Source of the DNA: Opitutaceae bacterium
Lineage (GTDB): Bacteria > Verrucomicrobiota > Verrucomicrobiia > Opitutales > Opitutaceae
Reading direction: 5' to 3'
Length of the DNA stretch: 64,000 nt
Assembly: GCA_028284235.1 (NCBI GenBank)
Contig: JANQSC010000072.1
Coordinates: 1 to 64,000 of the forward strand
Both the position numbers and the translations under genes were made by a program. The notes under the pieces were generated by a model, which did no database searches, was not told the origin of the DNA, and saw only the letters and a list, made by a program, of their open reading frames with translations. Shown here piece by piece: positions 22,451-26,622 of the stretch; position 1 is the first letter of the stretch; every line of letters begins with the position of its first letter.

Positions 22451-22552
22451 AATGGCCGCTCGGAGATCGGCCGCTACCAAATAAACGCGCCGGGACGGCC
22501 CGTTCCACCTTACTCCGGTAGAGAGGTGGAACCCGCCGTCCCGGCGGGTTTT
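22451..22552. repeat. Palindromic repeat, copy A
   Basis: AATGGCCGCTCGGAGATCGGCCGCTACCA (22451-22479) plus hairpin core AACGCGCCGGGACGGCCCGTTCCACCT...AGGTGGAACCCGCCGTCCCGGCGGGTT (22484-22552); both parts recur at 25041-25257. Confidence 0.85.
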
Positions 22553-22566
22553 ATTCATCCCCGCAG

Positions 22567-25068
22567 TCAGTTCTCTCGAAATCCTTCGCTCGTGGCGACG
22601 AGTTCGACCAGGTCGCGAAAGCCGCCGCCGCGCTGTTCATGTCGGTCGAGAATCTCTTGAACGGTAGCTCGGTCGCCAAAGTTCAACTCCCTGCCGAGGG
22701 CGTAAGTGAGCAGCTTCTCGGTCAGGCATTTGGCGAATAGGTCCTTTCGACCCAATAGAAGAGTCTTCAGTTCAGAGAGATCGTTGAATGGCTCCCCGCT
22801 TGCGAGCTGTCCCGAGGCGTCGATTTTGCGGGTGGGTTTGCCTCGGTCGTCGCGGTAGAACGAGCGCTGGCGGCCGATGGGATCGTAGCTTTCCAAGGCG
22901 AAGCCAAGCGGATCGATCTTGCGATGGCAAGCAGCGCAGGTTTCGACGTGCCGGTGCTTTACGAGCTGTTCCCGTATGGTGGTGGCTCCGCGAATATCGG
23001 GCTCAAGCGGTTCGACGTCGGGAGGAGGTGGAGAGGGCGGCGTACCGAGAATATTCTCAAGTATCCAAATGCCTCGTACGACCGGAGAAGTTTCCACGCC
23101 GTTGGAGGTAGTCGTGAGAATGCTTGCATGGCTGAGCAAGCCACCTCGGTGGGATTTGGTGGGCAGTTGCACTTTTTGGAACGCATCTCCCGTCACGTTT
23201 CGAATTCCGTAGTGATCAGCCAGATACCGATTAAGAAAGGTATAGTCGGAGTCGATAAACTCGTCGATCGAGCGGTTGTTTTTGAGAATGTGCTGAAAGA
23301 ACTGACGCGTTTCCTCTTTCATGAGAGGCTGCAGTTTCCGGTCGTGGTAGATCTTGAATTTCCCTTCGTCAGGGGGCATCGAACCGAGGGCGTTTAGGCG
23401 CAGCCAGGAGTCGGTGAATTGTTCTGCGAATGCTCGAGACTTTGGATCTCGGAGCATTCGTCGCGTCTGGACGAGGACCTGTTCGGCAGTTGCGAGTTCG
23501 CCTCGATTGGCGGCCTCTAGTAGGGTTTCGTCGGGCATCGAGCTCCAGAGGAAGTAGGAAAGACGGGAAGCGAGGGCGTATTGCTCGTGGTGTTTCGGAG
23601 CTGCAGCAATATCTGCCTCGTCGTCGTTTCGGGGTCGTTCTACATAGAGAAAGTGGGGGGAGGTGAGGATCGCGGAGAGGGTCGCTTTCAGGGCTATCAG
23701 TGGACGGGTTCCGGCGTCGCGCAACCTGTCGTAGAATTTCACATACCGGTCGCGTTCGGCGGGGAGCAATGGGCGGCGAAAGGCCCGCGGAGCGAAGCGC
23801 CCGACGATTGCGGCCGGATCGAATTGGTTGGGGCGCGAGGGGCCGGGACCGAAGAGGGCTTGATGGCTTTGCGGGGGCCACTGGTCGATTTCCGGCCCTT
23901 CGATCTCCATCGAATAGATACGAAGGCGAGGACCCGCGTAGACGTCAGACAAGTAGATCTCCTGATTTTCGTCCGGCTGGGTGTCGGTACCGGACCGCCA
24001 GTTGCTGGGAACGACGTCGAGGTGGTGCTTTTCGGTCAATCGAGTCAAGGTTCGCTTGAAGGGTCGGGGACCGTTGGCGAAGACGAGAATGGGCACGAAG
24101 CCTTTGTCCATCCACGCGCGGACTTCGTAGGTTTTTCGGTCGTTGTCTGCTATCGGGAGGATCGCGATGGAGCGATCGGAGGCGTTGGTGCGGCGGTCGG
24201 GAGTACCGACGGAGGGGTCGGTAACGATGAGTTCCGCTTTCAGCGGTTCGCTCGGGTCCATACCCAGAATTTCGGGATCGTAGGGATGGGCTCTCCCGAT
24301 CGCGGTGGCGTCGATGCGGATGGTGTAGTAGCCGTCTGCGGGCACGCCTTTGAACCGGTCGGCGTGGTAGCGCTGGGATTCCCTATCTCCGTGGCCGATG
24401 TCGACGTATTCGCCGTTCACGTTGACTTCGAACCAAATTTGCGGTCGGAAGTGGAAGGTCCGGTCGGTGATGTCGTCCGGCAGGAAACGCTCATTGATTG
24501 ACGCAGGTTTTGCGTCGAAATTGATGGCTTTGTCCAGTGAAAGGGAAGCGGCCTCCAGGTATTTTTCCAGAAGATGGTCGGACAGGACCAGGCTCTTCCC
24601 TAGGTTTTGAAAGCCGTCTAATTCTTCATCCGGCGGGAAAGACGCGGTTGGATCGAACGAATCCACGTTGATCTGTAGCAAGTCGCGAACGGTGTTGCGG
24701 TATTCGAAGGCGTTGAGGCGGCGTAGTCGAGTCGTGTCTTGCCCGGCGCGGGCGGCGTGGACGCGCTCGAGTTCGCTGGTAATCCAGTCGACCATCGCTA
24801 GTCGTTCGGAAGTCGCGGGCTGCGGCTCGTCTTCGGGCGGCATATCGCCGAGGTTCAGCATGTCCAGAATTTCCTCCCACGACCAGGCTTCGTCGACGTC
24901 ATCAAAATTCAAGGACAAGGTGTCGAAACGGCGGTCGCCTTTTTGTTTCTCGTCGCCGTGGCAACTGATGCAATGGGTTTGGAGAAAGTCCAGAGGGTCG
25001 ATGGCATGGAGAGGGATCGAGCTCGAAACAAAGACCAAAATGGTAGCGGCCGATCTCCGAGCGGCCAT
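22567..25068 (-). CDS. DUF1592/DUF1588/DUF1587-type protein with N-terminal cytochrome-like (CISCH) motif
   Basis: LDFLQTHCISCHGDEKQKGDRRFDTL, LRRLNAFEYRNTVRDLLQINVD, YALASRLSYFLWSSMPDETLL, HRHVETCAACHRKIDPLGFALESYDPIGRQR. Start placed at ATG 25068 (MAARRSAATILVFVSSSIPLHA) rather than the track start 25320. Confidence 0.87.
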   Translation of the reverse strand: MAARRSAATILVFVSSSIPLHAIDPLDFLQTHCISCHGDEKQKGDRRFDTLSLNFDDVDEAWSWEEILDMLNLGDMPPEDEPQPATSERLAMVDWITSELERVHAARAGQDTTRLRRLNAFEYRNTVRDLLQINVDSFDPTASFPPDEELDGFQNLGKSLVLSDHLLEKYLEAASLSLDKAINFDAKPASINERFLPDDITDRTFHFRPQIWFEVNVNGEYVDIGHGDRESQRYHADRFKGVPADGYYTIRIDATAIGRAHPYDPEILGMDPSEPLKAELIVTDPSVGTPDRRTNASDRSIAILPIADNDRKTYEVRAWMDKGFVPILVFANGPRPFKRTLTRLTEKHHLDVVPSNWRSGTDTQPDENQEIYLSDVYAGPRLRIYSMEIEGPEIDQWPPQSHQALFGPGPSRPNQFDPAAIVGRFAPRAFRRPLLPAERDRYVKFYDRLRDAGTRPLIALKATLSAILTSPHFLYVERPRNDDEADIAAAPKHHEQYALASRLSYFLWSSMPDETLLEAANRGELATAEQVLVQTRRMLRDPKSRAFAEQFTDSWLRLNALGSMPPDEGKFKIYHDRKLQPLMKEETRQFFQHILKNNRSIDEFIDSDYTFLNRYLADHYGIRNVTGDAFQKVQLPTKSHRGGLLSHASILTTTSNGVETSPVVRGIWILENILGTPPSPPPPDVEPLEPDIRGATTIREQLVKHRHVETCAACHRKIDPLGFALESYDPIGRQRSFYRDDRGKPTRKIDASGQLASGEPFNDLSELKTLLLGRKDLFAKCLTEKLLTYALGRELNFGDRATVQEILDRHEQRGGGFRDLVELVATSEGFREN

Positions 25069-25257
25069 TCGTATGATAGGAGCGAAGCATTGTGGTTCCG
25101 CTGAGCGCATTGGTGTCAACTTAAACCCGCCGGGACGGCGGGTTCCACCTTTATTTGACTGAGCTTGCGGTGGAACGCGCCGTCCCGGCGCGTTTATGCG
25201 GATGAGAAGTAGAATAAGCTGACAACAATGCGCTAAGCGGAAAGATCGGCCGCTACC
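25041..25257. repeat. Palindromic repeat, copy B (imperfect inverted repeat about 216 bp)
   Basis: Outer arms GGTAGCGGCCGATCT (25042-25056) / AGATCGGCCGCTACC (25243-25257); inner arms CCGCTGAGCGCATTGGTGTC / GACAACAATGCGCTAAGCGG; core 25122-25195 matches copy A. Confidence 0.85.
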
Positions 25258-25323
25258 TTGAGTGGATACAAAGTTACGAATCGGAAAATTCACTTTCGAA
25301 CCCAAACGTTGGATACGCAATCT

Positions 25324-26622
25324 TTACACGAGTCCTTGCAGTGTGCCGGAGCTGGTGCCGAATTGCTCGATCTCCATCCCGAACTTCTGCAGCATGGAAA
25401 GGTAGAGATTGCAGGCGGGAGTCTGCGACCGGCCGGATTTGGGGTAGTCCTTATGTTCCCCGTGCTGGAATCCGCCGCCCGCGAGGAGCAGCGGCAGGTC
25501 GCGGTTGGAGTGGGAGCTGGCGTTGCCGAGCCCGCTGCCGAACAGGACCATGGTGTTGTCGAGGAGGGACTGATCCGCGCTCGCCTGATGCCGTTTTAAG
25601 TCTTCGAGGAAGCGAGCTAGCTCGCGACTGTAGAAAGTCTCGATAATCGCCAATTGCTTGAGCTTTTCGGGGTTCTTCCCGTGATGAGTCAGGTCGTGGT
25701 AACCTTTGGTCACTCCGGTTAGGCCGGACTCGGATTTCCAGCCGACGATATTGTAGGTCAAGACACGCGTTGAATCGGTCTGCAGGGCCAGCTTCATCAG
25801 TTCGAAGTAGAGGGGGACCTCGTCGTAGAACGCGGTGGGAAGCGGGTCGGGCAGGGCGTAGTCGACGACGGGCTTGGCCCGATTGAGCCAGGCTTCTGAC
25901 ATGGAAAGCCGCTTCTCGACTTCGCGCACCGACGTGAAATACTCGTCGAGTTTTTCCCGGTCGTTCTTGCCGAGGCGTTTTTGCAGCGACTGGGCGTCCT
26001 CGCGAACGACGTCGAGGATGCTCGTATTCAGTTTGTAGGATTGAGCGAGTCGGCCTTTCTGGGATTCGGGGGTTTCTCGGAAGAGCGCGTCGAAAAGGCT
26101 GTTCAAGTCCGGAACGGGCGCTTTGGCGACCCCGTTGCGTGTCCAGGAAATGCCGCCGCCGTACGAACCTCCGCCGGTGTTGAGCTGGATTGAAGGGAAG
26201 CGCGTGTTCGCCCCGACGAATTCCGCCGCTTTCTGGTCGAGGCTAATATTCCCTTCCGGCATTCCTTTGGACTGCTGGGAAAGCACGCCCGTCAAAAAAG
26301 AGTGCGTCGCCCGGTGGCCTCCTTTTATGCCCGGGTGGTCCAAATGAGAGAATAGGGTAAAGTCCTGGCGCAACGACTCGAGCGGTCTCAGGAGGCTCGG
26401 CATCGTGTAGCTCGGCCCCGTTTCTTTTGGGAAAAACCCTTCCGGATGCATGCCGTAGTCCAAGCCGATGCAGACCATTCGCGTTGGTTGACCGGACGCC
26501 GAAGCCGCCGCTCGGGCGAGGCTCGCAGCAGGAGCAATTGATTCTAGGAAAGGCAGGGCAACCGCGGCTCCGGCTCCCCGAAGGAACGCCCTGCGATCAA
26601 TATGGTTTCCGTGCGTTTTCAT
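25324..26622 (-). CDS. DUF1552 protein with Tat-type signal
   Basis: DRRAFLRGAGAAVALPFLESIAPA; IGLDYGMHPEGFFPKETGPSY; SVREVEKRLSMSEAWLNRAKP; DNTMVLFGSGLGNASSHSNRDLPLLLAGGG. Confidence 0.88.
   Translation of the reverse strand: MKTHGNHIDRRAFLRGAGAAVALPFLESIAPAASLARAAASASGQPTRMVCIGLDYGMHPEGFFPKETGPSYTMPSLLRPLESLRQDFTLFSHLDHPGIKGGHRATHSFLTGVLSQQSKGMPEGNISLDQKAAEFVGANTRFPSIQLNTGGGSYGGGISWTRNGVAKAPVPDLNSLFDALFRETPESQKGRLAQSYKLNTSILDVVREDAQSLQKRLGKNDREKLDEYFTSVREVEKRLSMSEAWLNRAKPVVDYALPDPLPTAFYDEVPLYFELMKLALQTDSTRVLTYNIVGWKSESGLTGVTKGYHDLTHHGKNPEKLKQLAIIETFYSRELARFLEDLKRHQASADQSLLDNTMVLFGSGLGNASSHSNRDLPLLLAGGGFQHGEHKDYPKSGRSQTPACNLYLSMLQKFGMEIEQFGTSSGTLQGLV

Follow-up and report, generated by a model that had tools for sequence, protein, structure and literature searches.

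Probable in-frame capture of a GTAG-type REP composite in the signal-peptide n-region of a coupled DUF1592 gene

GTAG-tagged REPs and REPINs carry, according to the passages devoted to them by Di Nocera et al. (2013; PMC3733652) and by Bertels and Rainey (2011; PMC3116915), a GTAG tag and a small palindromic body, and they occur as inverted doublets 20-100 bp apart and as dispersed copies near gene 3' ends. The REP passages of the former paper locate these repeats usually just after stop codons, and they also describe GTAG REPs that lie within ORFs, predominantly in Opitutus terrae and in a fraction of cases at ORF amino ends; many of the amino-terminal or 5' cases are treated there as probably untranslated (PMC3733652). 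Rickettsia palindromic elements (RPEs) are presented, in the sections that deal with them (PMC10969869, PMC3733652), as in-frame palindromic repeats found in many genes and apparently tolerated. The repeat studied here is similar to both systems in these respects. It lies in the window, by which we mean the whole 64,000-nt stretch analysed (positions 1 to 64,000 of contig JANQSC010000072.1, assembly GCA_028284235.1, Opitutaceae bacterium), where a preliminary description had noted a palindromic repeat that appeared to supply the start codon and signal-peptide n-region of a DUF1592 gene.

The repeat itself was found as described. The 29-nt sequence AATGGCCGCTCGGAGATCGGCCGCTACCA is exactly identical at 22451-22479 (plus strand, copy A) and 25041-25069 (minus strand, copy B), with 0 such matches expected from shuffles, and no further copy with up to three mismatches is present in the window. 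As had been claimed, the frame of copy A reads MAARRSAATK and then stops, the hairpin core is common to copies A and B, and copy B is palindromic, the palindrome proper being the 216 nt of 25042-25257. Copy B is a composite of a REP, a 147-nt MITE-like unit and half an inverted REP. Inverted repeats are nested in it at three levels, namely REP ends of 15 nt (100% matched), arms of 28 nt (89%) and an inner hairpin of 28 nt (93%); copy A is a single REP with the inner hairpin only (Table 1). The two related copies (22451-22551 and 25042-25257) are inverted, lie 2.5 kb apart and bracket the DUF1592 gene, which makes them a possible substrate for inversion.

Table 1. Features of the DUF1552-DUF1592 junction and of the two repeat copies, in window coordinates.
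Feature	Position	Strand	Basis
DUF1592-type protein from ancestral coupled start TTG 25320; 917 codons including the insert	22567..25320	-	open frame, domains
Upstream DUF1552 gene (PF07586), coupled partner	25324..26622	-	domain match
Shine-Dalgarno AAGGA for TTG 25320, within DUF1552 tail	25333..25337	-	duplex -6.6 kcal/mol; position as in orthologues
ATG inside REP, start of the preliminary description; 833 aa if used; without Shine-Dalgarno	25066..25068	-	duplex energy
Further in-frame ATG inside MITE-like unit, possible start	25108..25110	-	
216-nt palindromic insert, 72 codons, between DUF1552 stop and DUF1592 hydrophobic core	25042..25257	.	inverted repeats; one stop-free frame; flanks join in frame
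REP unit GGTAGCGGCCGATCTCCGAGCGGCCATT; minus strand encodes MAARRSAAT	25042..25069	+	exact repeat; genome-wide REP matches
MITE-like unit	25096..25242	.	28-nt terminal inverted repeats 25096-25123 / 25215-25242
Inner hairpin of MITE-like unit	25122-25149 / 25169-25196		inverted-repeat analysis
Half inverted REP, complementary to 25042-25056	25243..25257	-	inverted-repeat analysis
REP of copy A, intergenic, 3' of DUF1592 gene	22451..22478	-	exact repeat
Copy A inner hairpin of MITE-like unit, terminal repeats missing	22483..22551	.	inverted-repeat analysis

The repeat family is a GTAG-type REP, GGTAGCGGCCGATCTCCGAGCGGCC, in which the tag GGTAG is followed by a small palindrome with the stem GGCCG/CGGCC. 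A search for more copies in the 6.1-Mb draft genome returned 57 matches to the 15-nt REP core at up to one mismatch and 0 for the reversed control; given these counts, and since the 147-nt inner unit, which resembles bacterial MITEs in its 28-nt terminal inverted repeats, has about 40 relatives elsewhere in the same genome, the repeat is not a product of chance. Many of the REP copies form inverted doublets (REPINs) in both orientations, and at 22 of 34 REP sites in this genome, as counted with a home-made gene caller, a gene 3' end lies within 60 nt. The fold of a single REP unit (-6.9 kcal/mol, z -1.75) indicates only a modest stem, and the doublets give near-perfect hairpins with z below -11. 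With a slightly degenerate pattern, matches were obtained for 10 of the genus's 11 genomes, with 3-114 in each, and for a single one of 27 genomes from elsewhere. At four further loci of this genome (L009, L030, L043 and L044) the MITE-like unit, or the hairpin from it, is found together with a full or half REP, so that composites of this kind may form a mosaic element that recurs. Copies of the REP within other long ORFs (L031, L041, L045, L054 and others) were discarded, being, by the gene caller, not genuine 5' coding cases. Contigs C4, C14, C16, C60 and C63 (L032, L038, L039, L052, L053) end in or near a copy of this REP.

The window's DUF1592-type protein has the domain order PSCyt1-PSD3-PSD5-DUF1592-PSCyt3-PSD2. 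In its orthologues, nine from the same genus and one from a closer relative (L157, 73% protein identity), the DUF1592 gene begins at the stop of DUF1552 or a short way beyond it, and its Shine-Dalgarno sequence mostly lies inside the DUF1552 tail. The window retains this arrangement at TTG 25320, for which the calculated Shine-Dalgarno duplex energy is -6.6 kcal/mol, as compared with -5.0 to -9.8 in G001, G002, G004, G008 and G009 and -2.4 in L157. From this TTG the frame is open through the insert to 22567; the 216 nt make up exactly 72 codons, and the frame in use contains 0 stops, as against three in each of the other two. Joined without the insert, the flanks read MRIQRLGSKVNFPIRNFVSTQ|ILVFVSSSIPLHA, an ordinary signal peptide, and the stop-to-CxxCH distance of 351 nt less the 216-nt insert is 135 nt, compared with 132 in L157, the closest relative. 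From the retained start, the stop-free 72-codon insert and the joined flanks we infer that the repeat was captured in frame within the signal-peptide n-region. Translation probably proceeds from TTG 25320 through the repeat, and the product is presumably still exported, although the resulting n-region of about 94 residues would be unusually long for this gene, which counts against capture.

With respect to the proposed donation of both start and n-region, the second part stands: the residues AARRSAAT directly before the hydrophobic core derive from the repeat, and MAARRSAAT occurs at the N-terminus of none of the orthologues examined (the nine of the same genus and L157). The first part is not supported as proposed, as the ancestral TTG 25320 with its AAGGA survives in frame, and donation of a start codon is unneeded; as the main event it was rejected since the upstream start is retained. 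The repeat would thus supply residues beside the hydrophobic core and need not have donated a start codon. That the repeat displaced the old start, so that translation now begins at the REP ATG (25068) with MAARRSAAT as new start and n-region, is a possibility we hold to be rather doubtful: it would yield a signal peptide of normal length (22 residues) with two arginines, but this ATG has no Shine-Dalgarno sequence (+1.5 kcal/mol, against -6.6 at TTG 25320), is buried in a very stable fold (z -8.6), and is preceded by the ancestral start, which is intact and in frame together with its Shine-Dalgarno. The insert carries a consensus-perfect REP and so is probably recent, and it adds a long, highly structured leader. 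A recent hit by which this copy of the gene lost its export or its expression, with an accidentally open frame prior to decay, could account for these features; the remainder of the 917-codon frame is however intact with all domains present, and older captures in sister species (P2, below) are still open, making such an inactivation unlikely.

Insertions of this kind recur in other genes and species. A further DUF1552-DUF1592 operon of this genome (P2) is split by the assembly, at a REPIN, between contigs C16 and C60; the two ends have 19 exact nt in common and differ at one position in the 12 nt of REP alongside. Joining them, as these two contig ends would suggest, gives MRSTKSQ-GSGRSPSGQNLFNKYGRSEIGRY-LIVILGLVFICPSSSFA from an ATGA start, and here the REP is read in another frame, without the ATG on which the displaced-start model depends. 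P2 carries a degenerate in-frame REPIN in G003, G006 and G010, with an additional 39-nt insert nested in frame inside the captured REPIN of G003 (L116), and is without REPIN in G001, G002, G004 and G007. The 39-nt insert is similar to a sequence that recurs at other places in G000 (gctcaccatcctgagcctgtcg). The window's paralogue has a different in-frame REPIN in G001 (GGTAGGGAGGACC...), in-frame palindromes are found in P4 of G001 and in P5 of G001 and G006/G010, P6 contains another repeat in G000/G006 and a GGTAGC REP in G008 and G002, and P7 of G010 has captured a single REP. The captured in-frame palindromes come from at least four families, and the net charge of the repeat-bearing n-regions is +2 to +12. 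Separately, four loci of the window's paralogue (L070-L073, from G003, G005, G006 and G010) have a leader about 120 nt longer than that of other repeat-free species; the extra stretch, which follows the DUF1552 stop and precedes the cytochrome motif, is in frame and open in all four with no recognisable palindrome, and is perhaps an old, decayed capture.

An unrelated gene gives the same picture. In three species (G007, G002 and G009) an in-frame REPIN lies in a gene for a PhoD-like phosphatase that is joined to the gene upstream by ATGA coupling; the REPIN reads KVAADL... and then, just before the hydrophobic core, MTARRSVAT, VTARRSVVT or MAARRSIAT, the last being the peptide of the preliminary description with one change. 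These REPINs have an in-frame ATG (GTG in one species) at the place matching the REP ATG at 25068, which speaks for the displaced-start model. In the PhoD-like loci L257, L266 and L264 the REPIN has a dS of 0.23-0.63 against a saturated gene body; this suggests that the REPIN either entered later at this same site or underwent gene conversion.

To evaluate the frame, strong palindromes (inverted-repeat score of at least 13) judged to be independent were compiled from five genomes, in which every DUF1552 match was surveyed, and from P1 and P2 of the remaining genomes. The results showed that eight of the nine at DUF1552-DUF1592 junctions are in frame with an upstream start (P about 0.001 against the one third expected by chance), the number of events depending on independence as judged from a two-gene tree. 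P2 of G000 was counted apart from P2 of G003/G006/G010 because G000 is outside the clade containing the empty sites; merged as one event, they leave seven of eight in frame. The sole exception, which counts against capture, is P10 in G001 (L183), where the palindrome is out of frame and the start lies downstream of it. This case favours a reading, of the kind cautioned about for many N-terminal REPs (PMC3733652), in which the repeat serves solely as an intercistronic RNA element or 5' leader and translation begins beyond it. The start would then be TTG 25038, for which a Shine-Dalgarno-like stretch within the REP gives -6.6 kcal/mol. Such a start would however produce MVFVSSSIPLHA, with no basic n-region; P2, P6 and P7 have no usable start between the whole repeat and the hydrophobic core, and frames are kept far above one third, for which reasons we consider an untranslated leader very unlikely. 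Among G003, G006 and G010, changes in n-region length are multiples of three, and repeat-bearing n-region codons have a dN/dS of about 0.4-1, compared with 0.06-0.16 in the mature part; judged from these substitution patterns, the repeat peptide is weakly constrained and its frame kept. Selection for the repeat peptide was set aside and is not claimed, because dN/dS is relaxed.

Our preferred explanation, to which we assign a probability of about 0.68, is that the window's 216-nt composite is an in-frame capture in the DUF1592 n-region, brought about by a REP settling at a coupled stop/start. GTAG-type REPs and REP doublets would tend to settle just 3' of stop codons, and with ATGA-type coupling, in which the start of the next gene overlaps or adjoins the stop, the site would fall among that gene's first codons. 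At ATGA-type junctions the position after the stop is 20-26 nt into the next gene, and the P2, P6 and PhoD insertions are found there. Signal-peptide n-regions tolerate differences in length and favour basic residues. In a gene for a secreted product the REP site would coincide with the n-region, which may tolerate added, preferably basic, sequence, and insertions that keep the frame and lack stops would survive as a longer n-region. RAYT-type (Y1 enzyme) transposition is the presumed source of the insertions. Y1_Tnp genes number three in the window's genome and 22 in relatives (draft genomes), and a RAYT adjoining a GGTAGC REP was not found: none of these 25 loci is closely flanked by GGTAGC REPs, one GGTAGC copy in L244 being the only occurrence, and that no cognate transposase for the GGTAGC family came to light among them counts against the capture model. 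The GTAGGGC family, also captured here, flanks a Y1 transposase gene in C17. There, at L061 (G000:C17:126174-126416), the Y1 transposase gene with flanking GTAGGGCCGGCGCTTGCG repeats is likely the mobiliser of another REP family, captured in paralogue P6.

A wider reading, which we offer tentatively, is that across the genus REPs and REPINs are a recurrent source of n-regions, and that captured copies are kept because they serve in export or in the translational control of export; they might be pre-adapted to this by arginine-rich coding in more than one frame together with targeting to stop/start junctions. On the capture model itself, selfish repeats in related uncultured Opitutales repeatedly become the front part of protein-export signals, by a simple rule for the entry of palindromes into proteins: they settle near stops, and coupled starts place n-regions there. 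The repeated captures with their empty sister sites provide a natural experiment on n-region sequence tolerance and on whether mobile DNA contributes new protein termini. In practical terms, gene callers can misplace starts at repeat-bearing coupled genes.

In the open literature, most subscription-journal papers being outside that scope, we found no precedent linking REPs or RPEs with signal peptides, and signal peptides are not named in the REP passages of the GTAG REP paper (PMC3733652). Borrelia IS605 stem-loops were rejected as a precedent, being located at gene 3' ends. Unlike bacterial MITEs, the 147-nt unit is enclosed by pieces of REP. RPEs are recognised by their insertion, in frame, into protein-coding genes, and this is seen here as well, the likeness being one of behaviour only: in the sections concerned with them, RPEs belong to another phylum and to another sequence class (CGTC-type or RPE-1; PMC3733652) and occupy variable ORF positions, whereas few of the copies described here are coding, and these lie at n-regions. 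Unlike the known GTAG REPs, the captures described here cluster at coupled signal-peptide n-regions, involve several families and have empty sites in sister species. In-frame REPs are known from Opitutus and Rickettsia; what looks new, within the open literature, is that several families have been captured time and again at the coupled starts of signal peptides.
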